Part shown: piece after piece, positions 3,995 to 22,945 of the stretch
How positions within the stretch are numbered: the stretch's first letter is position 1
How the letters are laid out: each line of letters begins with the position of its first letter
From: a virus
Virus record (IMG/VR): IMGVR_UViG_3300046512_000361
Coordinates: 1 to 41,500 of that record
Strand: one strand, 5' to 3'
DNA: 41,500 nucleotides
The notes under the pieces: model-generated
Database searches by the model: none
What the model was told of the DNA's origin: nothing
Seen by the model: the letters and a program-made list of their open reading frames with translations, nothing else
Made by a program: the position numbers and the translations under genes

Positions 3995-4019
3995 CTTGCC
4001 TCCGATATTGGATGGCAAG
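3995..4019 (-). repeat. Inverted repeat over the spike ribosome site
   Basis: On the minus strand CTTGCC and GGCAAG flank a 13-base loop, with an extra TCC/GGA pairing inside. The right arm contains the GGAGG ribosome site of the tail-spike gene. An almost identical repeat (CTTGCC/GGCAAG) occurs at 12121-12144 at the same distance from the same upstream motif. It is either an RNA hairpin affecting translation or a DNA dyad near the transcription start. Confidence 0.6.
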
Positions 4020-4021
4020 GG

Positions 4022-4053
4022 ATTAGAGGTTGCAGGGGAGGGCTTGAATCGAC
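4022..4053 (-). promoter_or_regulatory. Putative phage late promoter, copy A
   Basis: The minus strand reads GTCGATTCAA, exactly 15 bases, then CTCTAAT. The element begins five bases after the stop codon of the 2008-aa ejection protein and precedes the tail-spike gene. The same motif and spacing recur at 12147-12178, 13288-13319, 16741-16772 and 22716-22747. If CTCTAAT is the -10 box, transcription would start near 4015 and give a leader of about 24 bases. A role in transcription is inferred from repetition, spacing and position. Confidence 0.6.
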
Positions 4054-4057
4054 GGGG

Positions 4058-7000
4058 TTAGTCTTCTTTGATCTTGCCCTTGGTCAGGCCTTCCCACCAG
4101 TCGCCGAACGTTTCAGGCTCCTGATTGCCAGTGCTGACGTCGACCATGAACTGAGCGGCCGCAGCGACCTGGCCGGGGATAGGCGCTCCGACATAACCCG
4201 CCGTCTCCAGCGCATCGCGGGTCGCGCGCTTCGTTTCCTCGCCCTCGATCAGGCGATGGATGTTCTTAGCTGTGTTGACGACAGATCGCCCGACCCCGGA
4301 TGCTGGCGTGAAATTATAGCCGAAGCCAGACGCCAGCCCGCCTGCAATATCTCGTACGACTGGAATTGGCCCTAGCGCCGATAGGCCCACCTTCTCCAGC
4401 GTCCAAAGCGTCCAATCTTCATCATCTTCAGGCGATCGGCCCGCGAGCAATTCAGATGCCAGCGCCGGGAAGAAGTAGAGCATCATCGTGCGGGCGAGCA
4501 GTCCGGGAAAATCCTTGACCGAACCCGTGCGGAATGCTGCACCATAGTCGCGCCCAAGTGTGCGCTGGCGCTGATAGAACGCGCTCATATAGCTGTAGAA
4601 CATCGTCAGCAGCTTACCCGCTTCCCCCGCAGCGCCTTTACCACGCTGGATTGCCGCCAGATCCTTGGCCGCGCCGGAACCCTGCGACTGCCGGACAGCC
4701 TTGTCGGCGAATGCGACCGCATCGGTTTCAGTCGCACCCTCATATAACGCCTTGTTGTAAGCACCGATCCAACCGGCCGTCGACACGAACCGATCCATCA
4801 TACCGATGAAGTAAAAGCCGAATTTCTTAGCGTCAGACAGAAATCCGAACTTGGATTGCTCGCGCTGGATGGCGTCGCGAATATCACGATCGAGCGTTTC
4901 CGTGCGGGCGGCAACCTCTTGGCTGGTGGCCAGAACATAGCGCATCGATTCGACCGGCGACTTGCCGACACGATAGATGCCTTCCGCCGTCCAGCGCGTC
5001 CCGATCCGCTCGGCCGTATTGAAGAAGCCAGCCAACTGCATCATCGTGGTCGACACACGGAAGCCCATACCCACAAATGTCGCGTTCGTCCGCAGTCCCT
5101 TCACCAACTTCTCGACTGCGCCCATGCCCTGCGCGTCATAGGCAAACTCATTGGCGATGTGCTGGAGCCATGGATTGAACTGCTTCTGAACATGCTCGCC
5201 CAGGGCGCTGCGAACGGCCGTAATGACCCGCTTATCATTGAGGAAGCGATGGGCATCAATGACAGCCTCGCGATGCGTGATATCATGGATGACCTCGCCG
5301 ATATGCCGGGACAGCACTGACAGAGACAGCAGGACCGGGCGTTCTACTTTGGTCCGCTCGTTGGTCGATCCTGCGCGTGTATTGGATCGGCGATATGCGC
5401 TTTCAAACAACTTGTCACCACTGACTGCATTTTGCCGTTCGGTATCAAGTGAGCGGGTCGGATCATAGACGACGGGATAGTAACCTCCACGCAGCTTCTG
5501 CGCCGTGCGGCCGAAGCCAACCCACATCTCGCGCGCCTCGACCTTCTCAGGCTCCACGCCGTTTACTCGCCTCTCCAATGCCGCAATGTCGGGCCAGAGG
5601 GTGTCGATAATATCCCAGGTTTCCTGAACAAAAGACCACTCTTCGGGGGATAGTTCAGTGTTGAGCGCATCAAGGATGGACTGCTCGTTCCATCCATAAC
5701 CCCCGGCAAGTTTGCGGATATTGCCTTCGTTGCCCATGTTCAGAGCCATCGCGATCAATTTGTCGCGCGTCATCACTGCGGGGCGTCCCGTCTCGGGATC
5801 GATCATGGTGAGCGTGATCTTTCGACCCCACCGCCTGCGCGTGGCTTCAGGTATCCTCATGCGCGCGACTTCCAACTGCCGCATCATATCGGCCGTCCGC
5901 AACCGCCGCTTTTCCTGCGCATCAACAAAGCGCTGAAAGACTACTCGGTTGAACACGCCTTTCGGCCCACGATCCAGCCAGTCGAAGACGGTTTCCATCT
6001 TGAGCATGGAGGCATCAAAGCTCAGCACGAAAGACTTTCCGCGATCGAACCAGCCTAGCTCATCGAATGAAATGTCGGACGGCTTCTGCGGCAAGCCACC
6101 AGCGGCCGTGATTGCCTCGCCAACAACCGCCTCATAGTCACGCTCATCCTTGGCATCGATCAGCTTTTGCTTAAGCCGCCCAAGGTGCATGATCTGCTTG
6201 ACCGCCGCGTCCAACCCAAGAAGTTGGTCGACGGTGAGGCGGCTCCAGCTCGTTGTTCCCAGCGTGGCGGCAAATGAAGGCGGGACAATCATGTCGCGGC
6301 CCGCATCTTCTTGCTCGCGCGCCCAAGCCTCATAGCTTTCCTGACGATCAAGGAACCGGCCAGTCCGCTGCTTCAGGTCGACCTGCTCCAGCAGTCCCTG
6401 CGCGCGCTCCAGGTAATCCTGATCGATGCTGGCCATGGTCCGCTTCGACGCAACCTTGCCCAACCGGTTCAGCGCCCCTTCAATCTCGTCGGCGGTGCGC
6501 TTGGCTTCGGACACGAGCGCGTTGTTCAGCAACTGCGCCTGTTTCTGCCGGAAGGCCTCAACATTATCGCCAGCGACCACCGCATCAAACGCCGCCTTGC
6601 CAGCCTTGGATGCAGCACGCTGATAGCGCTGAATAGCCGATCGCGACGCCACGTCTGCGACACGGCTCGACCTTACTGTCCGCGTCGCCCAATCCTTCGC
6701 AATGCGATAAGGCGTAACCCGCTGGCCTGTCGAGCGAGCCAGAACACGCATTTCGGAGGCGATGACCTCGCCCTGTTGATCGTTATGGATAATCGCAAGC
6801 GCTTCCTCCTCGATCGTGCCATCAGTGAATGGGTCGCCGTAGCGCTCCAACATGAGCGCATCGACTTCCTGATCTATCAGCGCCTTGCGTACCGACCGCT
6901 GATCACCTCCTTCCCTCAATTGCCGACGTGCGGTTTCCACCCCCATAAGGGCGCGGACCATCTCATCGCCGGATGTGAAGCCGGACAACTCGGCTGCCTC

Positions 7001-10000
7001 ATCTGGATTGACCCCACCGTCTTTGAAAATCGGGGGGACGTTCTTTGGGAGCATCGCAGGCGCGTCTTCGCCCAACGTCTCACGAATCCATACCGCATCC
7101 AGCGGCGCCTGCCTGGCAGCTGCTAGTGCGCGAAATTCAGGCCTTGCGTCTATGGATGCTTCCACATCGACAGCAAGGGCGGCGCGACGATCCTTATATT
7201 CCTTGGTTACGCGACGCTTGACCGCATTCATCACCTTGGCCAGCAGAGTATCATGAGCGGCGTCGCGCGCGCCGACAGCACTTTCCCGATAGGCCGCAAA
7301 TTCATCATCGGTCATGTTCGTCGGCTTCTCAGGGAACAGTGCCGAAATATTCTGCGCCTCAGCCGCCGCAACGATTTCTTCGTCTGTCGCGATCATGCGA
7401 TCCATGACAGCGCGGATTTCCGGCGTGATCGGGGCCTTGAGCCGGTCGATGCTGCGGTAGACCGCGACCAGCCACGACTTGAATGCCTCAAAAGCCTTTC
7501 GCAGCACCGGCGTCGGCGCCTTGCCCTCCATCAGATAGCGCTCGACCCCGCGCGCCCATAGCTCGTGGGCATCAACGGGAATCACGCTATCTGCGACAGC
7601 ATGGCCTTGACCGGCGAACCATTGCTGAACCGTCAGCCAATCCGTCTTTAGCTGCTCAGTCGCGTCCGGATCAGCAGCATCATAGCGCAACTGCTCCAGC
7701 CACAGATGCCCGGTTTCATGCAGAAAGGTGGACTGGTCACGGGCCTGGAATAGTTCGATCACACTTGGTCCTTGGCCGAAGCCCGCAGACGGGAAAACGA
7801 TGCGACCGCGCGGTCCGTCGTTTAGGGTTTGGTCGAACGCCTGGCCCTCAGCCTCTACCTGGTAAGCGGCAATGGCGTTCTTCACTTCTTTGCGCGTCGC
7901 CGTGTCGGGGTCGATCCCGCGGCTATCTAGCATCCCGCGCAATTCCTGCGCCGCATCCCGCAGCGTCTTTTCCTTGGCGGTCAGATAGCGGTCACGCCCG
8001 GCGACGCCTTCAGACACGGCGTCCAGCAGATCATTAGCCGATGGGCGATCGGCGAACTCAGGGAAATAACCCGCCTCCCACGCGCGCATGGCCCACTGAT
8101 CGGCGCTATATTCGTTCTCGCCAAGCCCGCCTTGGTCGATCAACTCGCCTTGATCCTTGACCAACTTTCGCTTGCCCGGCTTACCCTTGTGCCACGCATC
8201 GGCGCCCATGGCCTTCAGATCGCCGCCTGTGTCGACAATGCCGCCGCCCTTCGCAATGAAGTCCATCAGCGATGGCCCCGCCGCCGTCCTGGCGTCTTTG
8301 CCACCCTTCATCGTTTCAATCAGAATGTCGGTATTGTCGGCGGCCTGCACCTGGGCAAGGGCGGGGGGCAGAATTTGCCGCACCTCAACAGGATCAAACT
8401 CTTGCCCCGTAAGATCGCGGCCCATGCGAGCGGCCCGCGTCACTTCGCGCTGGGTCAAAAGTTCAGCCTGCTGTATGGCCGTCGACGGGGTGAAGCCCGC
8501 ATTCATCAGTTTGTCGGCAACGGACTGCCGGAGCGTTTCGCGCGGCTGCATATCAGCCCGCGCTTGCTCAGCCTCCTTAGCCGCCTGCTCAGACAAGTCA
8601 TCCATGACATCAGCCATGGCGTCATCGAACGCCTGCGATTCGCGCAGGGACATGCCGCCAGCGGAAAGCCGCATATCATCCTTCAGTGCAGCCCATGCCG
8701 GGGTGTTGGAGATGCGCGCGGTCACTTCGCCGATCGGCAGCACAATATCGCCGCCCGTCGCATAGGCTTCGTCCACGGCATCGCGAAAGCTGTCGAACTC
8801 ACCACTATAGCCTTCACTCTGCTCATAAGCGCGCAGGGCGTCGGCGGGAATGAACACGCGGTCGTTGCCTGTTTCGTCGCCTAGCTGCTGCGCCAGATCA
8901 GCCAGCGCATCCGGTGCGCGACCCGTCAGTTTCGATTTTGCCGCCGCGTCCGCAACATTGCCCAGAAAAGCGCTATTCTCCTGCGCTTGACTGGCCTCTT
9001 GTCGGCGCTCCAGCACTTTGGCGGTCACGCGGGTAGTGCGCTCTACAGCGCTCGTCAGGCCGACCGTCGCACCGACGCCGCCGATTGTTGCAGCCAATGT
9101 CTCGGCCGCCGCAGCTGGACGTTCAGCGACGAATTGGCTCAGCGACTTTTCAGGGTTGAGCGTAGCCCACTGGTTCAAGTCCTGAAGCAAGGTTGCCGCC
9201 TGCTCACCAGGCACTTCTGCCGCAAGCTGGCGCATCAGGGTCTTTCCCAGCGGAGACTTTGCTGCGAGATCGCCAACCAAGCGAGACACGGGCATCTTCT
9301 CGGTGATGAACTCGACCGCGCCTTGCGATGCGCCGTATAGGGCCGATCGCACAGGTGAGAGGCCTTTATCCCGCGCATTCACATATTCGTTACCGCCAAC
9401 TGATGCGCCCATGATGCTGGCGCCCGCTCCGGGGCCAGCCACCATGCCAACACCAACAGCCGCCGCGGAAGTGGGGAGGCTTTCCACTCCCTGAAGTAGA
9501 TTGCGAGCCAGCCAATTATCGACTTGGGGCCGCGTCTTGTCTGAACTGACTTTATCGGCCCGTTGAATACCAAGGGCGGCATCGGCGATAGGCTTGAACA
9601 GGGCGTTTGTCTCAGGGCTGATTTGCGCAATGTTTTCGGCCAGGCCACCGATCGTCCCATAAATACCGCCTAGCGCCGTATAGGTGCCCGCCTTGAGCGT
9701 CTTGCCCAAATTCTTGACGCCGTAGAACGCCTTCCCCAACAGTCCGAGATTGTCGTAATCGTCGGCAGCAAGTGCAGCATTCCCAGGCTTAGCCGACCAT
9801 TTGCCGATCGCGGGATAGGCCTGCATCGCAGACTTCGCGCGGGCTGCCCGCGCCTCAGCTTCAAACGCAGGCAACTGACCAGCAACGACAGACGGCGGCA
9901 GTCCGCGCGCCTCTGCGATCGGTCGCACACGCGCCTCTTCATCGGGCCTGGCGACCTTGATCCGATAGGACAACTCATCGTCGCGCTGGCGTTGCAGATC

Positions 10001-10084
10001 CGCTTCGAACGGATCATCGGACGCAGCAGGCGCGGCTGTCCGCGCGCGCATCTGATCAAGATATTTATACGGGTCCGTCGCCAT
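4058..10084 (-). CDS. Giant internal virion/DNA-ejection protein (2008 aa)
   Basis: This is the largest gene in the window. It lies where T7-like phages encode gp16 and follows a gp15-like partner. The N-terminus (MATDPYKYLDQMRARTAAPA) is helical and charged. A Gly/Ala-rich segment near residues 120-300 may be membrane-active. A HETGH motif at residue 789 (STFLHETGHLWLEQL) is the zinc-protease pattern HExxH. The later half is mostly helical and resembles large polyvalent proteins of temperate podoviruses. It probably leaves the capsid with the DNA and helps build the envelope channel. The start at 10084 overlaps the upstream stop as TAATG; a TTG six bases earlier is less likely. Confidence 0.8.
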   Translation of the reverse strand: MATDPYKYLDQMRARTAAPAASDDPFEADLQRQRDDELSYRIKVARPDEEARVRPIAEARGLPPSVVAGQLPAFEAEARAARAKSAMQAYPAIGKWSAKPGNAALAADDYDNLGLLGKAFYGVKNLGKTLKAGTYTALGGIYGTIGGLAENIAQISPETNALFKPIADAALGIQRADKVSSDKTRPQVDNWLARNLLQGVESLPTSAAAVGVGMVAGPGAGASIMGASVGGNEYVNARDKGLSPVRSALYGASQGAVEFITEKMPVSRLVGDLAAKSPLGKTLMRQLAAEVPGEQAATLLQDLNQWATLNPEKSLSQFVAERPAAAAETLAATIGGVGATVGLTSAVERTTRVTAKVLERRQEASQAQENSAFLGNVADAAAKSKLTGRAPDALADLAQQLGDETGNDRVFIPADALRAYEQSEGYSGEFDSFRDAVDEAYATGGDIVLPIGEVTARISNTPAWAALKDDMRLSAGGMSLRESQAFDDAMADVMDDLSEQAAKEAEQARADMQPRETLRQSVADKLMNAGFTPSTAIQQAELLTQREVTRAARMGRDLTGQEFDPVEVRQILPPALAQVQAADNTDILIETMKGGKDARTAAGPSLMDFIAKGGGIVDTGGDLKAMGADAWHKGKPGKRKLVKDQGELIDQGGLGENEYSADQWAMRAWEAGYFPEFADRPSANDLLDAVSEGVAGRDRYLTAKEKTLRDAAQELRGMLDSRGIDPDTATRKEVKNAIAAYQVEAEGQAFDQTLNDGPRGRIVFPSAGFGQGPSVIELFQARDQSTFLHETGHLWLEQLRYDAADPDATEQLKTDWLTVQQWFAGQGHAVADSVIPVDAHELWARGVERYLMEGKAPTPVLRKAFEAFKSWLVAVYRSIDRLKAPITPEIRAVMDRMIATDEEIVAAAEAQNISALFPEKPTNMTDDEFAAYRESAVGARDAAHDTLLAKVMNAVKRRVTKEYKDRRAALAVDVEASIDARPEFRALAAARQAPLDAVWIRETLGEDAPAMLPKNVPPIFKDGGVNPDEAAELSGFTSGDEMVRALMGVETARRQLREGGDQRSVRKALIDQEVDALMLERYGDPFTDGTIEEEALAIIHNDQQGEVIASEMRVLARSTGQRVTPYRIAKDWATRTVRSSRVADVASRSAIQRYQRAASKAGKAAFDAVVAGDNVEAFRQKQAQLLNNALVSEAKRTADEIEGALNRLGKVASKRTMASIDQDYLERAQGLLEQVDLKQRTGRFLDRQESYEAWAREQEDAGRDMIVPPSFAATLGTTSWSRLTVDQLLGLDAAVKQIMHLGRLKQKLIDAKDERDYEAVVGEAITAAGGLPQKPSDISFDELGWFDRGKSFVLSFDASMLKMETVFDWLDRGPKGVFNRVVFQRFVDAQEKRRLRTADMMRQLEVARMRIPEATRRRWGRKITLTMIDPETGRPAVMTRDKLIAMALNMGNEGNIRKLAGGYGWNEQSILDALNTELSPEEWSFVQETWDIIDTLWPDIAALERRVNGVEPEKVEAREMWVGFGRTAQKLRGGYYPVVYDPTRSLDTERQNAVSGDKLFESAYRRSNTRAGSTNERTKVERPVLLSLSVLSRHIGEVIHDITHREAVIDAHRFLNDKRVITAVRSALGEHVQKQFNPWLQHIANEFAYDAQGMGAVEKLVKGLRTNATFVGMGFRVSTTMMQLAGFFNTAERIGTRWTAEGIYRVGKSPVESMRYVLATSQEVAARTETLDRDIRDAIQREQSKFGFLSDAKKFGFYFIGMMDRFVSTAGWIGAYNKALYEGATETDAVAFADKAVRQSQGSGAAKDLAAIQRGKGAAGEAGKLLTMFYSYMSAFYQRQRTLGRDYGAAFRTGSVKDFPGLLARTMMLYFFPALASELLAGRSPEDDEDWTLWTLEKVGLSALGPIPVVRDIAGGLASGFGYNFTPASGVGRSVVNTAKNIHRLIEGEETKRATRDALETAGYVGAPIPGQVAAAAQFMVDVSTGNQEPETFGDWWEGLTKGKIKED

Positions 10085-12117: not shown

Positions 12118-12120
12118 AGG

Positions 12121-12144
12121 CTTGCCTCTTGTGCGGATGGCAAG
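12121..12144 (-). repeat. Inverted repeat over the ejection-protein ribosome site
   Basis: CTTGCC and GGCAAG flank a 12-base loop on the minus strand. The right arm carries the GAGG ribosome site of the 677-aa ejection protein. Arms and placement match the repeat at 3995-4019: each starts two bases after the -10-like box. The conservation of these arms against otherwise different sequence suggests a functional role. Confidence 0.6.
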
Positions 12145-12146
12145 TA

Positions 12147-12178
12147 GCTAGAGGGGATGGCAGACAGCTTGAATCGAC
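12147..12178 (-). promoter_or_regulatory. Putative phage late promoter, copy B
   Basis: The minus strand reads GTCGATTCAA, 15 bases, then CTCTAGC, upstream of the 677-aa ejection protein. The plus-strand moron genes begin right beside it, so this element would keep the downstream ejection and spike genes transcribed past the insertion. The predicted start near 12140 leaves a leader of about 23 bases. Confidence 0.6.
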
Positions 12179-12183
12179 GGAGC

Positions 12184-12417
12184 ATGAAGACGGATAGCGG
12201 AAAGCTTTTTCTGTCTGCTTGGCTGTTCGCTATCGGATATTATCTAGCGCAAGGCAGGCTGCATGTCGTTGGGGCGCTAGGCTTCTGCTTGCTGCCGTTC
12301 TGCTTTGGGTTGGCAGTCCTGTTGTTGAGCAAGGGCAGTGACAATCGGCTACGCAATGCTGTGGTAGCGGTGGGCGCAGTTACGCTGATCTCCCTGTTTG
12401 GTAGTACGCGACTATGA
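12184..12417 (+). CDS. Membrane protein of a plus-strand moron (77 aa)
   Basis: This gene runs against the surrounding late operon. From the ATG at 12184 the product is 77 residues with about three hydrophobic segments (LFLSAWLFAIGYYLA, VVGALGFCLLPFCFGLAVLL, AVVAVGAVTLISLFG). An ATG at 12157 would add nine residues and run through promoter element B; neither start has an ideally spaced ribosome site. Base composition is more AT-rich than the neighbours. It is coupled by ATGA to a lipoprotein gene. The pair looks like a moron, possibly affecting the lysogen's envelope; the function is unknown. Confidence 0.6.
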   Translation: MKTDSGKLFLSAWLFAIGYYLAQGRLHVVGALGFCLLPFCFGLAVLLLSKGSDNRLRNAVVAVGAVTLISLFGSTRL

Positions 12418-12674
12418 AAACATACTTGAAACAATGGGTAACAACTCTCGTTGCGCTTCCATTGACAGCTTGCGCAACCAGCCCCACCAACGTTTATGGA
12501 GGGCTGCACGGCCAGGGCGTGACGGGTAATGAGGTATCCGTCATCGTTTCCAATATTTGGAACGAGATGGATGGCCTGAAGTTAGCGGACGCGCACTGCA
12601 AACAATATGGAAAGGCGGCCCGACTAAACCGGTTTGAAAATTACAAAGCTAGCTATGATTGCATCGCCCCCTAG
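12414..12674 (+). CDS. Lipoprotein of a plus-strand moron (86 aa)
   Basis: The 86-residue product starts MKTYLKQWVTTLVALPLTAC, a signal peptide with lipobox LTAC, so the mature form is a lipoprotein beginning at Cys20. The rest (~66 residues) contains two further cysteines (ADAHCKQYGK, SYDCIAP). That arrangement and the motif resemble small secreted bacterial proteins that monitor or modify the envelope, but I do not assign a family. Its start overlaps the membrane-protein gene as ATGA. Its stop TAG shares the palindrome CTAG with the stop of the convergent gp14-like gene. Confidence 0.7.
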   Translation: MKTYLKQWVTTLVALPLTACATSPTNVYGGLHGQGVTGNEVSVIVSNIWNEMDGLKLADAHCKQYGKAARLNRFENYKASYDCIAP

Positions 12675-13174
12675 CCGCCTACCATCGGACGCAACTGCCG
12701 ATACTGCTTAGCCCCACCCAGCGCAGTCGTCCCCATGTCGAACATACCCTTGACCAGCGCGCCGGTCGCCGCCTGCCGTGAAGCCTTGGCCTGCGATCGG
12801 TAATTGCTGCTCTCGATATTCCGGCCCAAGACATTCTCAGCGCCTTGGTCATAGATCCGGCGCACATCCTCATTGGCCAGCATGTCGGTATCGGCGGTCA
12901 GATCAGCGGCATTGCCGAAATTCACATCAACCCCGCCCGCTGCCATGGCGACACGCTGCTGGCCCTTAAGCGCGCCGACGCGGCGATAGTGCTGGAGCGC
13001 GGCGTCGCGGGTATTCTCTTCCTCCCGCCTTGCCGCCTCGTTCGCCAGTTTGGCGTTCTGATCCGCGACCTGGGCCTGATAACGGTTTTGCGCATTGGCT
13101 TGCAACGCCGAAAAGCCGGTGCCAATGGTCGCCGCAGCGGTTGCCGCAATGGTCAAGGTGACGGGATCACACAT
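12671..13174 (-). CDS. T7 gp14-like internal virion protein (167 aa)
   Basis: The protein begins MCDPVTLTIAATAAATIGTG, the Met-Cys plus hydrophobic Ala-rich opening typical of podovirus internal core/ejection proteins of the gp14 type. A long charged helix follows (QVADQNAKLANEAARREEEN). It would sit in the head core and form the outer-membrane part of the ejection channel. It overlaps the gp13-like gene by 8 bases and is followed by the two large ejection proteins, interrupted by the antisense moron. Promoter-like element E lies about 115 bases upstream, inside the gp13-like gene. Confidence 0.75.
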   Translation of the reverse strand: MCDPVTLTIAATAAATIGTGFSALQANAQNRYQAQVADQNAKLANEAARREEENTRDAALQHYRRVGALKGQQRVAMAAGGVDVNFGNAADLTADTDMLANEDVRRIYDQGAENVLGRNIESSNYRSQAKASRQAATGALVKGMFDMGTTALGGAKQYRQLRPMVGG

Positions 13175-13640
13175 CGCGATTCATCCAGAAATGACGGAAA
13201 GGGACGCCGCGCACCATTTGCTCCTCAGGCTCGACCGTGAAGCCCCAGCGCCGCAGCAGCGCGATAGCCTTCCGGTTGGCGCTGGACACTAGATTGGAGG
13301 CAAGCCAGCGTGAATCGACGCAGCGTCGCAGCATAGCTGGCCCCCAGGACAGGAGGATGCGGCCTTGACGATAGACTTCATCGGTGCCGAGAAACCAGAC
13401 CGTGCACTGCCGGTCAATCGCTGACACTGTGACCGCGCCGAACATGGCTTCGGGCCGTCCATCGACCAGAGCGGTATAGCAGCGATCCGACAGCATGAAG
13501 CCGTTGCGTAGCGCTTGCTTGGGGCTATGGCCCATCGCCTCACATTCCTCTTGGTCTATGCCACGCATCCGGCTTGCGATCGGTCCTATATGGGTGACGC
13601 GCGCCGGGACGACCTCGATCCTACCCACCGACAATCGCAT
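13167..13640 (-). CDS. T7 gp13-like internal protein, GNAT-related
   Basis: The 157-residue product resembles the phage gp13/DUF2833 family, small proteins with an acetyltransferase (GNAT) type fold. Visible features are an opening beta strand plus helix (IEVVPARVTHIGPIASRM), a central strand (PEAMFGAVTVSAI), then VYRQGRILLSWG and NRKAIALLRRWGF, the latter like the last helix of GNAT proteins. It is probably needed for virion assembly rather than acetylation. It overlaps the upstream tail gene by 20 bases; a GTG at 13628 would shorten the overlap. It precedes the gp14-like gene, the same order as in T7. Confidence 0.75.
   Translation of the reverse strand: MRLSVGRIEVVPARVTHIGPIASRMRGIDQEECEAMGHSPKQALRNGFMLSDRCYTALVDGRPEAMFGAVTVSAIDRQCTVWFLGTDEVYRQGRILLSWGPAMLRRCVDSRWLASNLVSSANRKAIALLRRWGFTVEPEEQMVRGVPFRHFWMNRDV
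13288..13319 (-). promoter_or_regulatory. Putative phage late promoter, copy E (internal)
   Basis: The minus strand reads GTCGATTCAC, 15 bases, then ATCTAGT. Nine of ten motif bases and the exact spacing match the four intergenic copies. It lies inside the gp13-like gene and points at the gp14-like gene. Because it is within coding sequence it could be coincidental, so the score is lower. Confidence 0.4.
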
Positions 13641-15441: not shown

Positions 15442-16091
15442 TATGGAATATCCTCGTTAGGGCCAAGCGGGCGACCGCCGCCGCCTGTAACGGGCGGATC
15501 GGGGGGCGTGACAGGGGGCGGAACAACTGGCGCGACAGGATCAGGATCAGGCTCTACCGTCCGCGTGATGCCCCCCGTTGCCGCAGTGAATGATCTCTTG
15601 CCCGTCGTGTCAGCGGCAATTGTGAAAACACCGTCATTGACCACGGACACAACGGTCCAGAAGCGATTATTGAGATAGTCGCCCAGATCACCCTCGATCC
15701 CCGAAAGGAATACCTCATCACCCACAGAATAGCCGTGGAAGGCGGCGCTGATTTGCGCGACAGCGGCGTTCGTGATCGCCGTGATGGCCAGTTCCTCGTT
15801 CAGCACCATGCCGCCGCCACTGGCTACGCGCATATAGCCTTGCCCCATTTCCAAGGCATAGGTCTGCTCAAACGAGAATTGGAACGGCAGCAGGCGCACC
15901 GGCTCGCTGGCGTCACGCACTTCGGCAACGAGCCGGGTGCCGGGGCGCTTGGTCAAGCCGCCATATTTAAGGACTATGACGTTGCGGGCTTTGCGCGCCG
16001 ACGAGGAATAGGCGTCCACATCGAATCGGCCATACAGATCCGGCGCGATCTCGCCCTTGCTAAAATTGGGAGACGCAAGCCGGTAGCCCAT
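15441..16091 (-). CDS. Tail protein, N-terminal portion (216 aa)
   Basis: The protein starts MGYRLASPNFSKGEIAPDLY and contains ARNVIVLKYGGLTKRPGTRL, the hallmark opening of large podovirus tail proteins. It then has a carbohydrate-binding-like or Ig-like beta segment (AFHGYSVGDEVFLSGIEG). It ends in a Pro/Gly-rich linker (PVAPVVPPPVTPPDPPV then GGGGRPLGPNEDIP) and stops, with the next gene taking over by TAATG. This looks like a natural split of a usually single polypeptide at a flexible linker. The start overlaps the gp11-like gene as TGATG. Confidence 0.75.
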   Translation of the reverse strand: MGYRLASPNFSKGEIAPDLYGRFDVDAYSSSARKARNVIVLKYGGLTKRPGTRLVAEVRDASEPVRLLPFQFSFEQTYALEMGQGYMRVASGGGMVLNEELAITAITNAAVAQISAAFHGYSVGDEVFLSGIEGDLGDYLNNRFWTVVSVVNDGVFTIAADTTGKRSFTAATGGITRTVEPDPDPVAPVVPPPVTPPDPPVTGGGGRPLGPNEDIP

Positions 16092-16732
16092 CAGACAGAC
16101 AGGCCCATGCGCGCATATTCGACCGGGCTGATATAGTCGGTCTGGCGACGTGGATTCCGGTTCTCGCTTGCGGCGACAGCACGCTGCCGGGCAATTTCGG
16201 CCTGCTTGATCAGATCGCCTTTCAACTCGCGGCTTTTCTTGATCGGCATGGCGAGACGCGCGGCAAGTTCCAATTCCACCGCGCGCGCGGTCAGCGAGTC
16301 TATGCGCGCCTCCTCGACCGCATTGCGCTGATATTCGAGGATGGCGCTTTCCTCGTTGGAATAGATCGCGCCCTCCGACAGAAGAAAGGGACGAGGGCCA
16401 AGTGCATCCCATTCGGGGAAACTGTAGGGGCCAAATTCAGGTAGGTTGATGGCCTGTGTTGCGACGAGTGGCACGATGTGCAGCGCGACGGAAAGGTCCG
16501 ATGGTCGGGCATAGCGATAGAGCCATTCACCAAAGCGATCGTTGGTGGTGAGGGCCAGTCCGACACGGCGGATCGCGAAGTCAAACTCGGTCCACGTCAG
16601 CATCTCGGCCAGGACTTGCGGATAGAAGCGCAGGCATTCCCGCCCGCCTATGGACCGCTCATCCAGCGAATTGATGGGGTCGGCCGCAATCTCGGCCAGG
16701 GCATTGTTGCACAGGGTCAGACGGTCGGCCAT
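16091..16732 (-). CDS. T7 gp11-like tail tubular protein A (213 aa)
   Basis: MADRLTLCNNALAEIAADPI followed by LDERSIGGRECLRFYPQVLA is the conserved N-terminus of gatekeeper/tail tubular protein A. Further segments FDFAIRRVGLALTTND and LYRYARPSDLSVALHI fit the same family, and the length is close to the usual ~200 residues. It forms the ring under the connector that joins head and tail. There is no clear ribosome site. Promoter-like element C predicts a transcript starting about two bases before the ATG, so it may be translated from a leaderless mRNA. Confidence 0.85.
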   Translation of the reverse strand: MADRLTLCNNALAEIAADPINSLDERSIGGRECLRFYPQVLAEMLTWTEFDFAIRRVGLALTTNDRFGEWLYRYARPSDLSVALHIVPLVATQAINLPEFGPYSFPEWDALGPRPFLLSEGAIYSNEESAILEYQRNAVEEARIDSLTARAVELELAARLAMPIKKSRELKGDLIKQAEIARQRAVAASENRNPRRQTDYISPVEYARMGLSV

Positions 16733-16740
16733 GGCGCGGT

Positions 16741-16772
16741 TCTATGGCGGCGTGCACAGCCGTTGAATCGAC
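16741..16772 (-). promoter_or_regulatory. Putative phage late promoter, copy C
   Basis: The minus strand reads GTCGATTCAA, 15 bases, then CCATAGA. The first base of the motif is the last base of the TAG stop codon of the upstream gene. The ATG of the gp11-like gene lies only nine bases after the box, which would leave a leader of zero to two bases. A weaker dyad (CGGC/GCCG) falls inside the 15-base spacer. Confidence 0.6.
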
Positions 16773-17653
16773 TAGGCGTCACTCCGCTGGATCGCAATGC
16801 AACTGAACGCCGTGCCGGTCACGGATGCGCCGAAGACGTTGAAGCCGGTCAAGGATGCGATGAGCGTGTTCACGCCGGTGATGACGCCAGTGAGCAGCGA
16901 AACAAGCGACAGAGTGGTTTGCGTCGGCAGCACTTGCGACCGCCACGCGCGTATCACGGCGCCCGTATAAGCGCCCGATGGCGTCGGCGTCATGATTTCG
17001 CGGACCCAGCTTTCTACCTTGAATGTCGCAGGCATTGTCTGGGGCGGCGCCGTGCCGGGGATCTCGGTTATCACCATTCCCGGTGGCAGGGTAAAGGTGC
17101 GGGTAAAGGCGACTGTTGCAGTACCGTTCGCGAGTATCGTCCCGGCCGTCGTGGAAGATAGGCGTGGGTGCTGATGCTTGGCACCAAGCACCTTGAGGCC
17201 GTCGACGCCTGGTTGCGGGTTGACCGCCTCTGGCTGGGGCATGTCGGTGGCGATCGTGGGGACGGTGGCAGCGAGTGACGTCAGCGCGGCCGTGGACGCC
17301 TTACCAGACACCGTAGAGGAAAGTGCGGCGAGCGTCGCCGCGTCCGCTTTCGAGGCAAGCGCGGTTGCATCAGCCTTGTCCGCCAGCGCTTGTGCTACAG
17401 CCGCTGTGTCTGCCTTTGCCTGCAATGCGGCAGCGTCAGCCTTCTGTGCAGCCAGGGTGTTCAAATCAGACTGTGACGCCTTGGAATTCAATGCCGTAAC
17501 AATGCCGCCAACGGTGCTGGCGTTCGCTTTCTTTTGATCCAGCGCGCTGATCTGTTGCTCAATCCCGCTGGGATCAAAAGCCGGAACAGGGCGGGGCGGC
17601 ACAGTCTGCACTGGCCGCCCCGGTATTTTGCTGCGGTTGAGTTCGCCAGCCAT
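16772..17653 (-). CDS. Structural fibre-like protein with coiled-coil repeats
   Basis: Residues ~30-125 are a run of short Ala/Asp/Lys repeats (KADAAALQAKADTAAVAQAL, DKADATALASKADAATLAAL), typical of trimeric coiled-coil stalks in phage fibres. The rest has a beta-rich portion (GTILANGTATVAFTRTFTLP) and a hydrophobic Ser/Leu/Thr-rich C-terminus. It lies between capsid-decoration genes and the tail tube, so a head fibre or appendage is likely. The ATG at 17653 overlaps the upstream stop as TGATG; a longer reading frame upstream lacks such coupling. It could have been mistaken for a collagen-like protein, but no Gly-X-Y repeat is present. Confidence 0.65.
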   Translation of the reverse strand: MAGELNRSKIPGRPVQTVPPRPVPAFDPSGIEQQISALDQKKANASTVGGIVTALNSKASQSDLNTLAAQKADAAALQAKADTAAVAQALADKADATALASKADAATLAALSSTVSGKASTAALTSLAATVPTIATDMPQPEAVNPQPGVDGLKVLGAKHQHPRLSSTTAGTILANGTATVAFTRTFTLPPGMVITEIPGTAPPQTMPATFKVESWVREIMTPTPSGAYTGAVIRAWRSQVLPTQTTLSLVSLLTGVITGVNTLIASLTGFNVFGASVTGTAFSCIAIQRSDA

Positions 17654-17895
17654 CAGGGATATCCGATGAAGCCTGATGCCGTGGTGCCAGTGGTGTTGAT
17701 GCCCTTCACTATGCACTTTATGGCATAGCCCGCAGGAACGTTCGGCAAAACCACCGTTTCCCCTCGTGCATTGACGAACGATACATTGCCCCCCGTCAAC
17801 ACATCAACCCAGCGGAATGGCCCCCCAACAGTGTCGGTCGTGTTCGCCGGCGTGATGGGAACGGCTGTGTACGAAACGTCGATAGGATAGGCCAT
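17653..17895 (-). CDS. Small spike-base-like structural protein (80 aa)
   Basis: This small all-beta protein (MAYPIDVSYTAVPITPANTT) contains NVSFVNARGETVVLPNVPAG and KGINTTGTTASGF. That pattern of strand-turn-strand with a V-P-A-G motif and a TGTTA segment resembles the small spike-base proteins of alphaproteobacterial gene transfer agents and phages (RCAP_Rcc01079-like). It is directly coupled to the fibre-like protein gene, so the two may form a head spike: base plus shaft. This pairing is an inference. Confidence 0.65.
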   Translation of the reverse strand: MAYPIDVSYTAVPITPANTTDTVGGPFRWVDVLTGGNVSFVNARGETVVLPNVPAGYAIKCIVKGINTTGTTASGFIGYP

Positions 17896-17941
17896 AACTG
17901 CTCCCATGCGGAAATGGGCGACCCGAAAGCCGCCCTATCCG

Positions 17942-18268
17942 TTACTGCGTGCGATCCTTGTCGTTGGCAGCCTTGATCGCTGTGATCAGGTCTTCCTTCG
18001 ACAGCCCGCCAGCATTGATGCCATGATCGACCGCCATTGCTTCCAGCGCAGCCTTGGACAACTTGGTCAGATCGACGTCACCAGGTTGCGGATCGAGCGC
18101 CTCCTCGATCGCACGCGCCAGTTCGGGCTTGCCGTCGACGCGCTCCATCCACGAGCCGACAGGGAAACCTGCCGGGACCAGGCCGTCAGGCTCAATCAGA
18201 AGCCCGCCGACATATCCGCGTTCGGTGGCCCGATGCGTATTCGAGCCAGTGAGGTTGGGTTTAGCCAT
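17942..18268 (-). CDS. Head-region protein with HeH/SAP-like C-terminus (108 aa)
   Basis: The N-terminal half (MAKPNLTGSNTHRATERGYV, GGLLIEPDGLVPAGFPVGSW) looks like a small head-associated domain. The C-terminal 40 residues (LTKLSKAALEAMAVDHGI, GLSKEDLITAIKAAND) read as a helix-extended-loop-helix motif of the HeH/LEM/Rho-N type. This motif is common at the ends of small phage head proteins and may bind DNA. It lies just downstream of the cement-protein gene. The start at 18268 was chosen because the preceding codons run back into the upstream gene. Confidence 0.65.
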   Translation of the reverse strand: MAKPNLTGSNTHRATERGYVGGLLIEPDGLVPAGFPVGSWMERVDGKPELARAIEEALDPQPGDVDLTKLSKAALEAMAVDHGINAGGLSKEDLITAIKAANDKDRTQ

Positions 18269-18281
18269 ATCTTGGTCCTCC

Positions 18282-18710
18282 TCAGTTCGTCTGCGCGCCA
18301 GCCACAACGGCGGCGAACAGTTTGCCGGTCGTGGGCGCGGTGCCGTTTACGTCGTAGTAGAGCCGCACATACTGCTCATCGACACCTTCGGGCAGTTCCG
18401 AGGGGAACTTGAGCCGGGCGCCGAGCGTCAGTTCCGCCAGCGGATAGGTGCGCGATGCGACCTCCTTGGGCGAAGAGAACGCCGCGTTGTCATCGACCTG
18501 AAGCGACAGAACCAGACTTGTCAGGTTGTTGAAAGCCTCCGTTACGGAAATCCACAGCGGGATCTCCGTGCCGATACCGATGTCACGGCGAACCGGCGCG
18601 GAGTGACCGTATGCCGTCCCCGCCGCGCCGATATTCAAGTTGTTGGTCGATCCCGCATCAGCGGTGACAGGCTGACTGTCGCTGAAGATCAGGGTAGCGT
18701 CGATAATCAT
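18282..18710 (-). CDS. Capsid cement protein, Bbp16 family (142 aa)
   Basis: MIIDATLIFSDSQPVTADAG followed by IPLWISVTEAFNNLTSLVLS, LQVDDNAAFSSPKEVASRTY and EQYVRLYYDVNGTAPTTGKL is the Bbp16-type cement (decoration) protein pattern. The length of 142 residues is typical. It stabilises the expanded capsid from outside. It follows the major capsid protein gene, as in phage BPP-1 and relatives, with a GGAGGAAA ribosome site near its ATG. Confidence 0.9.
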   Translation of the reverse strand: MIIDATLIFSDSQPVTADAGSTNNLNIGAAGTAYGHSAPVRRDIGIGTEIPLWISVTEAFNNLTSLVLSLQVDDNAAFSSPKEVASRTYPLAELTLGARLKFPSELPEGVDEQYVRLYYDVNGTAPTTGKLFAAVVAGAQTN

Positions 18711-18737
18711 GGAATTTCCTCCTTGCGATGCCGCCGA

Positions 18738-19775
18738 TCAGACGACGCGGGCTTCAGTGTTGAGAAGAGCGTCCGTCACCTCGATCGGGATGCCGCGATA
18801 GGACTGGACCATGCGGCCCTCCAGCTCCATGGGCTTGAGCATCAGCGCTGGGTTGCTGGAGTTGGTGCCGAGCGCGTCGAGTGCCTGGAGAACGCCGCGG
18901 TTCATATAGATGACCGTGCGGCCCTCGACCGACGCATTCTCGTTCAGCTTGCCGCCCGCCCCCATCATGGCCGTCGCATAGACGCCCTGAAGCTTGTAAA
19001 ACGCCTGCCGCAGGAGTTTGTAGAGATCGACGGTGCCCGCGTTCATGTCCGACACATCGATGTTGGCGACGCGCGAGTTGTAGCGCCAGTCACGCACCGC
19101 GACACCCAGATGCCAGCGGAACAACTCTTCCTTGACATAATAGGCGTTGCCGTTGGCGTCGGTGACGCGCTGCTCGCCCTTGTCTTCGCGCTGGATCCCC
19201 GCCTTGGTCCCCTTGGGATGGATAAGGTGGGTCGCCTTCTCGCTGTGCGTGACGATTGCGATGGACGTGTTGTCCGAACCAGTGCCGCCACCATCGACAA
19301 TCTGATTGCCGGCACCGCTGCCGCCAAGGGCATTGTAGCGAGCGAAAAGACCCTTGAACTTTTCCGGCGTGGTCGTCACGTCATGATAGAAGAAGCCTGT
19401 TTCAGCTTCCTGCACCATGGCCTCCAGAAACGCTTCACCCTCTTGAAGGCGCAGCGCCGCAGGGTTCGGCGAGATTTCCAGCAATCGAGTATCGACGGTG
19501 GACAGGCCCTCGACAAACCCCGTCGTGTCCGTCACCGCAGCGCGGCCCGACTTGCTCTGTGGGATGCCCTGATAGAGCCGCCCCCAGGTCACGCTGGGCA
19601 GGCCGGTCCGAATCGAATGCTGGTGAATGGTGCCTTTGTTGGCTTCGACCGTGAATGCATTGCGCACCACCGGCGAGAGCCGCGACAGAACTTCCACGAC
19701 TTCCGCAGAAGCCGCATCCCCACCCGCCCTGAACATGTCGATCAGATTGAGGTAGGACGAGCCGAGAGTAGCCAT
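18738..19775 (-). CDS. Major capsid protein, BPP-1/BcepC6B type (345 aa)
   Basis: The 345-residue protein begins MATLGSSYLNLIDMFRAGGD. It carries typical capsid segments NAFTVEANKGTIHQHSIRTG and GLPSVTWGRLYQGIPQSKSG near residues 39-77, and RWHLGVAVRDWRYNSRVANI near residue 220. This is the pattern of major capsid proteins paired with Bbp16-type cement. It forms the icosahedral shell with the HK97 fold. It is flanked by scaffold upstream and cement downstream, with a GAAGGAAGGAGC ribosome site. Confidence 0.9.
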   Translation of the reverse strand: MATLGSSYLNLIDMFRAGGDAASAEVVEVLSRLSPVVRNAFTVEANKGTIHQHSIRTGLPSVTWGRLYQGIPQSKSGRAAVTDTTGFVEGLSTVDTRLLEISPNPAALRLQEGEAFLEAMVQEAETGFFYHDVTTTPEKFKGLFARYNALGGSGAGNQIVDGGGTGSDNTSIAIVTHSEKATHLIHPKGTKAGIQREDKGEQRVTDANGNAYYVKEELFRWHLGVAVRDWRYNSRVANIDVSDMNAGTVDLYKLLRQAFYKLQGVYATAMMGAGGKLNENASVEGRTVIYMNRGVLQALDALGTNSSNPALMLKPMELEGRMVQSYRGIPIEVTDALLNTEARVV

Positions 19776-19778
19776 AAT

Positions 19779-20552
19779 TTACGCTCCTTCCTTCCTTACG
19801 TCGTTGGGGTAGAGAACCTCTTCCCGCGACTGTTTTACCTGCGCGCCCGCATCAGCGCGCACGAAGTCACCATCCTCGCCAACCATTCCGCCGATCTTGG
19901 CCATGGCCTTGATCATCTCCGGGTGGTTGCCGAGGCCAGTTTCGTTGAGAAGCGTCCGCAGCGCAGACCCTTCGCCATATCCAAGGGCGTCAAGGCCGCG
20001 ACCGGCTGTGTGCAGCGTGGCATCCCACTTGTTCCCGCCGATTTCCGGGTCCGCCTTGGCCTCTTCCAGCCACGCCTTGCGCTGCTGGTTGCCCTGGTCG
20101 ATAAATTGCTGGACCGTCGCGTCCTGCGTCTTGGCGATCAGGCTCTGCGCGAGTGGCAGCACCTTGCTTGCCGCCTCGTTCGAAAGGCCCAATTCCTTGA
20201 AGATCGGCGTCGCTTCCGTCAGCATATCGGCATCAATCGTCATGCCTTCGGGCGCGGTCAGTTCGTACGCCTCCGGGACGACGGGTGCTTCTGGCGCGGG
20301 GTCGGCAGGATCGGCAGCGTCAGGCTTCTTGCCGCCTAGCGCGGTGTCATCACCGTCATCGTCGCCGCCAGCAGGAGGCGCAGGATCAGTGGGAGGCGTG
20401 ACAACCGGATCAGCATCATCCGCAGGCGCAGGATCGGCGGCGGGCGCAGGATCGCCAGTCGGATGATCCGGCGCGCGCATGTAACGACCGACGCGCCGCT
20501 CCATCGCGGTCATCGCGACACCAGCCAGCAGGCTATTCCGGGATTTCGTCAT
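19779..20552 (-). CDS. Scaffolding-like protein before major capsid (257 aa)
   Basis: After a basic start (MTKSRNSLLAGVAMTAMERR), residues ~30-85 are a low-complexity acidic Pro/Ala/Asp region (PAPAADPAPADDADPVVTPP). A helical C-terminal half follows (LGLSNEAASKVLPLAQSLIA, EGSALRTLLNETGLGNHPEM). Acidic, helix-rich proteins directly before the major capsid gene usually scaffold procapsid assembly. No protease motif is visible. It overlaps the Bbp19-like gene by 20 bases. Identification rests on composition and position as much as on similarity. Confidence 0.75.
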   Translation of the reverse strand: MTKSRNSLLAGVAMTAMERRVGRYMRAPDHPTGDPAPAADPAPADDADPVVTPPTDPAPPAGGDDDGDDTALGGKKPDAADPADPAPEAPVVPEAYELTAPEGMTIDADMLTEATPIFKELGLSNEAASKVLPLAQSLIAKTQDATVQQFIDQGNQQRKAWLEEAKADPEIGGNKWDATLHTAGRGLDALGYGEGSALRTLLNETGLGNHPEMIKAMAKIGGMVGEDGDFVRADAGAQVKQSREEVLYPNDVRKEGA

Positions 20553-20847
20553 ACCGATCCGTCGCACTCTTCTTCTCCTTTGGGGCTGGGTTCGCTTCCT
20601 CGCGAAGCACCGCAATCAAGGTCATGATGTTAAGGGGGTGGCGGAGCGATGCCGGTTGGCCCGTCTCCACGTCGCTGAGCATCGCGAACACTTGGCTGCG
20701 ACGCCCCTCTGCAAATGAGAGATCGCGTCCATCAGCCCCGGTCGTTGCTTGCGACAAAATTCCGGCGCTTTGAATCGACCGCCAGAGGAAGCGACGAAAC
20801 GCGGGCAGCTTCATCAACTCGCCCATGTCGGTTTCTTGCTGGGTCAT
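20533..20847 (-). CDS. Bbp19-like head-region protein (104 aa)
   Basis: The segment LMKLPAFRRFLWRSIQSAGI followed by DLSFAEGRRSQVFAMLSDVE matches the Bbp19-type small protein found between connector and scaffold genes in BPP-1-like podoviruses. It is helical and polar with no membrane span. The role is unknown, presumably in head assembly. The ATG overlaps the connector stop as ATGA. A copy of GTCGATTCAA occurs within the coding region at 20770-20779 but lacks the TA box. Confidence 0.75.
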   Translation of the reverse strand: MTQQETDMGELMKLPAFRRFLWRSIQSAGILSQATTGADGRDLSFAEGRRSQVFAMLSDVETGQPASLRHPLNIMTLIAVLREEANPAPKEKKSATDRYDEIPE

Positions 20848-22490
20848 CCGAGCAGCGTGTCCAACATGGACTGGCCGTTGACATCCGTTTCAGACAGTAG
20901 GCGCGCACCATCAGCGCCTTGCTGCAGGGCCGGGGCCATCTCTGCCATCTTCGCCATGTTTTGCTGCTGGGCGCGCTGCTGGCGGATCTTTGCGACCTGT
21001 TCAGCGGTGCGGATCAGTTTCGGCGGTGCTCCCGCCCGATCCGCATACTCATCAATCATCTCATCGGTATCGAGCTTGTCGATGGCCTCGGGGAACACGC
21101 CAGCCAAGTTGCCGATGAAGGACGCGGTGCGCTCGATCTGGCCCAGACCGACCATGCGCTGCATCTGGGTCAGGATCGACACGAACTCCACCTTGATGTC
21201 GCCCTGCTCCTGCATTGCCTCAGGCACAAGCGGCAGCATCCCGCCGCGCATCATGATCCCGAACACGCGGTCAATGGCGACGTTCAGCTTCTCGGTGTTG
21301 ACGCGCTCGATGGTCGGGCCAAGCTGGGTCAGCTTTTCCTCGTTGCGCGCGGCAATTTCCTCGATATTGCGCGGTTGAACGCCCGGCATATTGGTGATTG
21401 CCATGAACAGTTCGGCGTAGGAGGTGGCGTCGATCTGGCGATAGAGCCGATCAATCTCGATGCCGATGATCTGCGGCGCTTGATATGGCACCTGATACGG
21501 CACCAACACGCTATCCTTGTCGACATCAGCCGCCGACACGATGTTGCCAGGCTGGCCCGTCAGTTTCAGGCCGGGCTTGACCACCTTCTCCGGCTTAACG
21601 ATGTGATCAATCGCCTCGTTGCGGCGCTTGACCTGCATCTGGAGTTCACGGATCGAGGCCAATCCCTCCATCGCCGGGGAATAGCCGTAGGTGTCCGATC
21701 CCGTCGTGTCCCAGCGTGGCGCATAGAATGGCTGATCGTGATAGCCATCGACCCGCAGAATCTTGTCGCGGCTATCTTGCTCGTCCCAATAGACCGAGCG
21801 GAATTGCTTGGAGAACGGATTGCCCGGCTGCCAGTCGGCATTCGGCTCGATGGCGTGGAACACATCGACCGTTTCGTCGTATGCCCCGCGATCATAAAGG
21901 CTGCGAACCGTGGTGGAGACACGGTCACCAAACGACTGCACCGCCTGCCGCACCGTCATGGGGCAGCGGCGATAGAGCGTGTCTGCCACCATCGCGTCCG
22001 ACTGCGCGATCCAATATTCGCCAGCGGTGAGGGCGTGGCACACCATGCCGAGCGATCGATGCTCGACCATGACGCAGGCCTCGGTCCCGAACAGGCCCAT
22101 CTCATGATAGCCGGTCTTGGCCGCGCCGTAGAAGTTCGTGGTGGCGAAGAACGCGCCCATGCGGCGCTCGACCTCCGACAGCCAGTAGCGCACATCAGGA
22201 TCATCCATCAGCGCTTCGTCATAGGCCGCCAGCTTGAACCATGGCCGCGACGGCGACGACAGGCCGGATGTCATGCCATTGGCCAGCGTCCGATAGCTGG
22301 TGATCGCATATTCGTCGTAGAGCTTGGCATTGCGGACACGGCGCGCGGACTTGTTCGTCTCGCTGTTCATGAACCGGGAGCGCGCAGGCTGGGCAAAGCG
22401 CGCGATGTCTTTCCATTCGGCCTCGTAATCCTGCCGAACAGACTTCATGCCCGAAAGCCGTGTCTCACAGTCCTGACGGATGGAGGACAT
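20844..22490 (-). CDS. Portal / head-to-tail connector protein (548 aa)
   Basis: The 548-residue protein matches podovirus head-tail connector proteins (T7 gp8/Bbp20 type): WKDIARFAQPARSRFMNSET, YRTLANGMTSGLSSPSRPWF, YGSPAMEG-like GYSPAMEGLASIRELQMQVK and QRAQQQNMAKMAEMAPALQQ in the C-terminal helix. Twelve copies form the portal through which DNA enters and leaves the head. It is preceded by terminase and a 64-aa protein (TGATG overlap) and followed by the Bbp19-like gene (ATGA overlap). Confidence 0.9.
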   Translation of the reverse strand: MSSIRQDCETRLSGMKSVRQDYEAEWKDIARFAQPARSRFMNSETNKSARRVRNAKLYDEYAITSYRTLANGMTSGLSSPSRPWFKLAAYDEALMDDPDVRYWLSEVERRMGAFFATTNFYGAAKTGYHEMGLFGTEACVMVEHRSLGMVCHALTAGEYWIAQSDAMVADTLYRRCPMTVRQAVQSFGDRVSTTVRSLYDRGAYDETVDVFHAIEPNADWQPGNPFSKQFRSVYWDEQDSRDKILRVDGYHDQPFYAPRWDTTGSDTYGYSPAMEGLASIRELQMQVKRRNEAIDHIVKPEKVVKPGLKLTGQPGNIVSAADVDKDSVLVPYQVPYQAPQIIGIEIDRLYRQIDATSYAELFMAITNMPGVQPRNIEEIAARNEEKLTQLGPTIERVNTEKLNVAIDRVFGIMMRGGMLPLVPEAMQEQGDIKVEFVSILTQMQRMVGLGQIERTASFIGNLAGVFPEAIDKLDTDEMIDEYADRAGAPPKLIRTAEQVAKIRQQRAQQQNMAKMAEMAPALQQGADGARLLSETDVNGQSMLDTLLG

Positions 22491-22684
22491 CAGCCGAGCG
22501 TGTTGGATGCAGCGGAGGTGTTGGCAGTGCCCAGCGCGCCGGACGGGCTGGTCATCATGCCCGCTATCGTGGCCCGGCGCTTGCGGCGCGCGTCGCGATC
22601 CTTGTTCGGGTCCGCGCCCTCGTCAGGCAGCTTTACCGACTGCCGCTCAGGGACGGTCGGAACATCAGGGGTCGAAGTGCAGAT
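22490..22684 (-). CDS. Small pre-connector head protein with likely ATC start
   Basis: The frame between the TGA at 22700 and the stop at 22490 encodes a short basic protein containing DVPTVPERQSVKLPDEG, DARRKRRATIAGMMTSPSGA and the tail SAASNTLG. This Pro-rich opening, basic R/K stretch and G-M-M-T-S-P-x-G motif are typical of the ~65-90 aa proteins next to connector genes in podoviruses, which normally begin Met-Cys. Here the Cys is preceded by ATC, with GGGAG seven bases upstream. No ATG, GTG or TTG occurs before residue 43. The stop overlaps the connector ATG as TGATG. The ORF is certain to be open; the ATC start is inferred. Confidence 0.7.
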   Translation of the reverse strand: MCTSTPDVPTVPERQSVKLPDEGADPNKDRDARRKRRATIAGMMTSPSGALGTANTSAASNTLG

Positions 22685-22691
22685 GGCCTGT

Positions 22692-22711
22692 CTCCCGCGT
22701 CATGGCGGGAG
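22692..22711 (-). repeat. Hairpin over the ribosome site of the 64-aa gene
   Basis: A perfect 7-base inverted repeat, CTCCCGC / GCGGGAG with a 6-base loop, lies 16-25 bases after the end of element D's TA box region. The right arm contains the GGGAG ribosome site of the ATC-started gene. It parallels the repeats at 3995 and 12121. Without a T run it is a poor candidate for an intrinsic terminator. Confidence 0.55.
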
Positions 22712-22715
22712 CAGG

Positions 22716-22747
22716 GATATGGGTTAGGGTGTTGGGGTTGAATCGAC
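22716..22747 (-). promoter_or_regulatory. Putative phage late promoter, copy D
   Basis: The minus strand reads GTCGATTCAA, 15 bases, then CCATATC. It overlaps the last codons of the 73-aa gene (where it encodes V-D-S-T) and precedes the connector operon. Predicted transcription from about 22709 would leave a leader of some 25 bases before the ATC start. Confidence 0.6.
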
Positions 22748-22945
22748 GGGGTGGCGCATGATGATCTCATGCGGGCCGAGCGGCGGAATCTCGTCATCGC
22801 AACGGGGAAGGCCGAACATCATGTCAACTCTGGTTGCCACGACGCGCGCGCCATGAGGGACGGGGATTCCTTTGGTCATATCGCCCACCGCCTCGCAGTA
22901 GGTGCCGTGGTGCCAGTAGCAAACCACATCCTTGCGTTCAGCCAT
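22724..22945 (-). CDS. Small protein after terminase (73 aa)
   Basis: The 73-residue product begins MAERKDVVCYWHHGTYCEAV, with two Cys and paired His that could bind metal. It contains a Pro-rich segment (DDEIPPLGPHEIIMRHPVD). Its ATG overlaps the terminase stop as TGATG, which fixes the start against a TTG one codon earlier. The C-terminal codons coincide with promoter-like element D. The family is not recognised. The position between large terminase and connector genes suggests a packaging or head-completion accessory. Confidence 0.6.
   Translation of the reverse strand: MAERKDVVCYWHHGTYCEAVGDMTKGIPVPHGARVVATRVDMMFGLPRCDDEIPPLGPHEIIMRHPVDSTPTP

Follow-up and report, generated by a model that had tools for sequence, protein, structure and literature searches.

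Repeated element in the late operon

Does a ten-base sequence that recurs along the late operon of a phage mark the starts of its late transcripts and, if so, what reads it? The window analysed here is the whole 41,500-base stretch of virus record IMGVR_UViG_3300046512_000361. Its late operon lies on the minus strand and is of the epsilon15/BPP-1-like type, with PHROGs and Pfam matches to the portal, Bbp16, GP7 capsid and T7-gp14-like families; homologues of the portal are found in BPP-1, epsilon15 and their relatives. An integrase and a CI-like repressor encoded in the window mark this podovirus as temperate. The virus family occurs in Sphingomonad bacteria, and related prophages are present in Sphingobium, among them one in Sphingobium sp. 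Leaf26 (L019). The early region of the window also carries genes for a phosphoadenosine phosphosulfate reductase-like protein (28389–29207, minus strand) and a C5 cytosine DNA methylase (29934–30770, minus strand).

Six copies of GTCGATTCA were found in the window, all of them on the late (minus) strand (Table 1). By chance 0.19 copies of GTCGATTCAM would be expected, and none of 100 dinucleotide shuffles reached six; for the spaced motif (GTCGATTCAM plus TA), five were found compared with 0.03 expected from such shuffles. The TA lies at an identical distance in five of the six copies, the exception being that at 20770–20779. The original prediction had listed the five spaced copies, and its coordinates, 15-base spacer and invariant TA are all correct, as is its claim that they recur beyond chance on a single strand. 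It had overlooked the sixth exact copy, and its statement that the copies sit at gene boundaries does not apply to 13310–13319, which lies inside 13167–13535, about 115 bases upstream of the gp14-like gene. The copy at 22738 sits in the final codons of a small ORF (22724–22945) and is followed by a 64-codon ORF and then by the portal gene. Every late-promoter copy in the window contains GANTC, despite the window-wide depletion of this sequence.

Table 1. Positions of the element copies and of the genes discussed in the text (window coordinates; promoter assignments are predictions)
Feature	Position	Strand	Remarks
Putative late promoter, portal block	22716–22747	-	GTCGATTCAA-N15-CCATATC; predicted +1 near 22707
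Putative late promoter, gp11-like tail gene	16741–16772	-	GTCGATTCAA-N15-CCATAGA; predicted +1 = A of ATG at 16732 (leaderless)
Putative promoter inside coding sequence of 13167–13535	13288–13319	-	GTCGATTCAC-N15-ATCTAGT; would serve gp14-like gene
Putative late promoter, 677-aa gene	12147–12178	-	GTCGATTCAA-N15-CTCTAGC; T to ATG, 33 bases
Putative late promoter, spike gene	4022–4053	-	GTCGATTCAA-N15-CTCTAAT; T to ATG, 34 bases
Orphan copy	20770–20779	-	GTCGATTCAA, no TA box; within Bbp19-like ORF
gp11-like tail tubular protein A gene	16091–16732	-	Predicted leaderless start
gp14-like (T7-gp14-like) gene	12671–13174	-	
104-aa ORF with orphan motif copy (Bbp19-like)	20533–20847	-	bbp19 position in BPP-1 gene order
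64-codon ORF directly after portal-block promoter	22490–22684	-	Start seems to be ATC
142-aa winged-helix protein, candidate specificity factor	24870–25298	-	Upstream of terminase genes

Conservation in relatives and distance to start codons

Relatives were collected by searches with the portal and with tail tubular protein B. The motif is present in records whose tail tubular protein B is about 68% identical or more, and the long relative records contain several copies each (seven at most), without exception on the late strand. The core pattern was found 188 times on the late strand versus four times on the opposite strand, counting redundant loci. Some loci are present twice (e.g. L001/L043, L018/L052, L019/L054, L020/L046, L029/L108 and L004/L081), and these duplicates were kept in the strand comparison and removed for the instance alignment, the offset and spacing counts and the tests on coding copies. 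A check named beforehand, that related phages should share the motif and its spacing, was borne out in more than 20 related records, in which the motif stands before orthologous genes. The portal-block element, for example, also precedes the orthologues in L001, L002, L017–L020 and L044–L060, with a diverged spacer.

Across distinct instances the ten bases and the TA are kept; there is only weak constraint on the 15-base spacer and on the DNA upstream, with C preferred at the two bases preceding the motif. The TA occurs at the fixed offset in 90 of 93 distinct sites (GTCG, CTCG and TTCG clades, Bbp19-like copies left out), and the next-best TA offsets (18, 13 and 9 among the 93 sites) probably come from extra sequence shared by orthologous promoters. 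There are thus two conserved boxes at fixed spacing, one near −35 and an A/T box near −10, as in promoters of the bacterial type. The upstream box is not a TTGACA-type sigma-70 −35 element, the TTCAA of GTCGATTCAA matching TTGAC at three of five positions. TTCAA nevertheless overlaps the sigma-70 −35 position, and host polymerase alone might use the sites weakly.

If the TA represents positions −12/−11 of a −10 element, transcription should begin 12 bases downstream of its T. In 31 of 35 close distinct cases at the gp11-like gene, the T of the box and the A of the ATG are 12 bases apart; the figure is 13 in three cases and 14 in one, and five more matches, outside this group, lie far away (109–172). 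Distances of 12–14 also occur at the gp14-like, 677-aa and spike genes of some phages when the promoter is close. Judging from the spacing, a distance of 12 would yield leaderless transcripts beginning at AUG. With this anatomy, conservation and start spacing, the element is very probably a promoter.

An inverted repeat, CTTGCC...GGCAAG, was observed at 12118–12145 and 3996–4020 (minus strand), around the transcription starts predicted for the 677-aa and spike promoters, and is conserved in relatives. These repeats probably do not form full RNA hairpins, as transcription is predicted to begin within or past their first arm.

Copies inside coding sequences

The two halves of the element are coupled even where they are part of a coding sequence. 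In the family of gene 13167–13535, GATTCA co-occurs with an NTA codon at the −10 place in 29 of 29 sequences, versus one of the 50 without GATTCA (79 distinct sequences; Fisher P = 9e-21, a value that overstates independence because the sequences are related by descent). CTA makes up 53 of approximately 1,000 Leu codons in the window. In L047 the in-gene motif is gone and the codon there is CTG, and a promoter adjoins the next gene at a distance of 12 from the ATG.

The orphan copy reads as the codons TCG ATT CAA of WRSIQ. Among the 29 distinct phages that have two or more other sites, 28 retain ATT CAA in the Bbp19-like gene, and the four site-free phages still encoding Ile-Gln have ATC CAA. 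In the coding copies, the synonymous Arg position tracks the clade (CGG, CGC or CGT).

Lineage versions and occurrence in bacterial genomes

Other phage clades carry prefix variants of the element, with CTCG, TTCG, NGCG or CGTG before ATTCAA-N18-TA. Diverged versions are CTCGATTCA (L027, six of six sites), TTCGATTCA (L029/L108 and L059), NGCGATTCAA (many relatives), CGTGATTCAA (L041) and CCGATTCAA (most sites of L033). In GTCG, CTCG and TTCG phages the prefix is uniform at every site, coding copies included, and differs between clades; in L031 and L040 it is not uniform. L033 and L041 are two prophages of one strain, Sphingomonas sp. AR_OL41, and their unlike prefixes provide the best evidence that the specificity is phage-borne. 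Two stringent scans of viral contigs returned 13 stretches, which included three contigs new to the set. One of these, L189, is a member of the phage family; L182 and L191 were rejected as carriers and regarded as chance matches, each having a single copy and none of the virion genes of the family. De novo searches revealed no convincing motif in relatives L025, L028, L030, L032, L035, L037 and L038.

In a more distant group of relatives (class B; L095, L099, L101 and L104), TTTTGAG-N18-TA stands before late genes in the same register. This TTTTGAG could be a plain sigma-70-like −35 element.

In four prophage-carrying bacterial genomes, the prophage accounts for 20 of 21 full matches and 11 of 13 core matches. 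Among 299 genomes of the family, we found 21 matches outside the single carrier versus 12 for the reversed control, so that a host regulon built on precisely this element is not apparent, and one was rejected on these genome-wide pattern counts. The same counts bear on the possibility that the late promoters are read by the host alone, through an alternative sigma factor or a regulator of its own, without a phage protein. Two boxes approximately 17 bp apart do resemble a sigma-factor promoter, TTCAA lies near the sigma-70 −35 register and the class B TTTTGAG resembles TTGA at −35. However, the element is not in excess in host chromosomes outside the prophage, and a host reader does not fit prefixes that differ between two prophages of the same host and are uniform within GTCG, CTCG and TTCG phages. 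We consider a purely host-read promoter unlikely.

As the GATTC of the element is a GANTC site, of which the window has far fewer than expected (42 versus 148–189), control by GcrA/CcrM was also considered, i.e. an epigenetic switch in which GcrA or another methylation-sensitive factor would couple late transcription to phage replication. Sites of the main class carry GATTC in spite of the depletion, GcrA/CcrM promoters of Alphaproteobacteria likewise have GANTC in the promoter, and a GcrA-dependent prophage operon is known in Brevundimonas (PMC7987155). The element, however, has an A after GATTC and so departs from the Caulobacter GcrA consensus YGAKTCK (PMC7987155); ten phage-specific bases are conserved rather than five, the clade prefixes are left unaccounted for and class B has no GANTC. 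The 112-aa ORF at 28054–28392, which on inspection resembled Myb/GcrA and was tried as a GcrA-like activator, was rejected, having no GcrA family match and no relative in the other motif phages. Such a switch appears distinctly improbable. Least probable are DNA sites other than promoters (packaging, recombination or RNA processing signals), which would suit the one conserved coding copy without a TA box and the inverted repeats after several copies, but the fixed TA offset, the 12-base ATG distance, the late-strand orientation and the pre-gene positions are predicted by a promoter alone.

Conservation, the TA-to-ATG distance, the lack of an excess in host genomes and the differences between prophages all back the original prediction of a phage-specific late promoter with a −35-like and a −10 element. 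Involvement of a phage factor of some kind seems probable from these patterns, and the joint claim, a late promoter together with a phage-encoded factor, is held with only slightly less assurance. In the mechanism that we propose, the TA would form positions −12/−11 of a weak −10 element for the host RNA polymerase, and GTCGATTCAA would span about −40 to −31, in place of the sigma-70 −35 element. A phage DNA-binding protein, expressed from the early or delayed-early unit that comes before, would be needed to read GTCGATTCAA and would recruit or remodel the host polymerase. Several late transcripts would then begin within the late operon, some of them leaderless.

Candidate specificity factor

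The phage-encoded factor may be, or include, the winged-helix protein encoded at 24870–25298. This is the only non-virion, non-terminase gene of the window that recurs in each of the 12 other motif phages examined (13 of 13, window included), and a reverse gene survey from two other phages revealed no further candidate common to all. It lies upstream of the terminase genes, which are themselves upstream of the first late promoter, so its place is probably in the preceding transcription unit, as one would expect of a late activator. The predicted structure (mean pLDDT 87) has a winged-helix N-terminal domain, with a LexA/MarR-like fold within the N-terminal 70 residues and a conserved APHWR tail. 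Foldseek yields only weak matches to LexA/MarR-type proteins (none reaches an E below 0.001), and the sequence matches are weak as well (Pfam LexA_DNA_bind, E 1.5e-4, just below the curated cut-off).

The family co-occurs with ATTCAA-N18-TA promoters and was found in 17 of the 22 records searched. It is missing from two class B phages, from L077 and from two records that are short or partial. Short forms of the protein occur in L025, L028 and L032, which do not have the promoter family. Covariation of the recognition helix with the motif prefix was rejected, at least three recognition-helix types being found among phages with the identical GTCG prefix. G012/L055 is a counter-example, with GTCG promoters and yet a replaced helix and C-terminal part. 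These divergent helices under GTCG suggest that the winged-helix protein may not read the prefix. That this protein reads the element at all is, on its distribution and predicted fold, a tentative proposal.

Comparison with known systems

By analogy, the element would work most like the middle promoters of phage T4 (sigma appropriation by MotA/AsiA), in which a MotA box centred at about −30 replaces the −35 element (PMC6755090). In both, a phage box at nearly the same place is combined with a host-type −10 element. The box differs in sequence and length from that of T4, and here it precedes late virion genes of a temperate podovirus. No MotA or AsiA homologues were recognised in PHROGs and Pfam searches of the window proteins scanned. 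Neither was a T7-like single-subunit RNA polymerase: there is no such PHROGs match among the proteins scanned and no non-virion predicted gene of that size in the window record, whose ends may be incomplete.

Several separate activator-dependent late promoters in one phage are also a feature of P2/P4 (Ogr/delta). The activator sites of Mu and P2/P4 are placed upstream of or around −35, a different anatomy from the box described here, which is fused into the −35 position at fixed spacing. Phage Mu too has several separate late promoters that depend on an activator (C protein; PMC4461284), and each late promoter of our phage is predicted to depend on a phage-encoded one.

The epsilon15/BPP-1-like podoviruses (Uetakevirus, Rauchvirus) have the same late gene order, with homologues of the portal, capsid and tail genes. 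In the late regions of BPP-1, epsilon15 and Tr60_Ab31, the last of which has a Q-like antiterminator in its annotation, both the element and its class B variant are absent; the element was not found in Sphingopyxis phage VSN-002 either. We found no description of the element, or of late control in epsilon15/BPP-1-like Sphingomonad phages, in the open-licence literature; as the papers covered were those under open licence, this is weak evidence of novelty. It is conceivable, though still doubtful, that the system represents an undescribed late-promoter/activator class, in which a small winged-helix protein reads a ten-base element in the −35 position with a specificity that drifts between lineages. 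If such a drifting pair exists, prophages in one host could have insulated, mutually orthogonal late regulons.

The element as interpreted here allows transcription starts to be predicted to the single base, together with leaderless late mRNAs, and points to a candidate regulator. Its natural variants across phages would constitute a ready set for the joint change of promoter and activator specificity and could serve as orthogonal promoters for laboratory use in Sphingomonads, and the motif flags prophages of this kind in raw sequence.

Start codon of ORF 22490–22684

The ORF that directly follows the portal-block promoter appears to start with ATC. At the same place, about a dozen relatives (most of the close ones) have ATT, and others have ATG or TTG. 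A conserved GGGAGACAGG precedes the ATC or ATT, and a natural non-canonical start codon is likely at this position.
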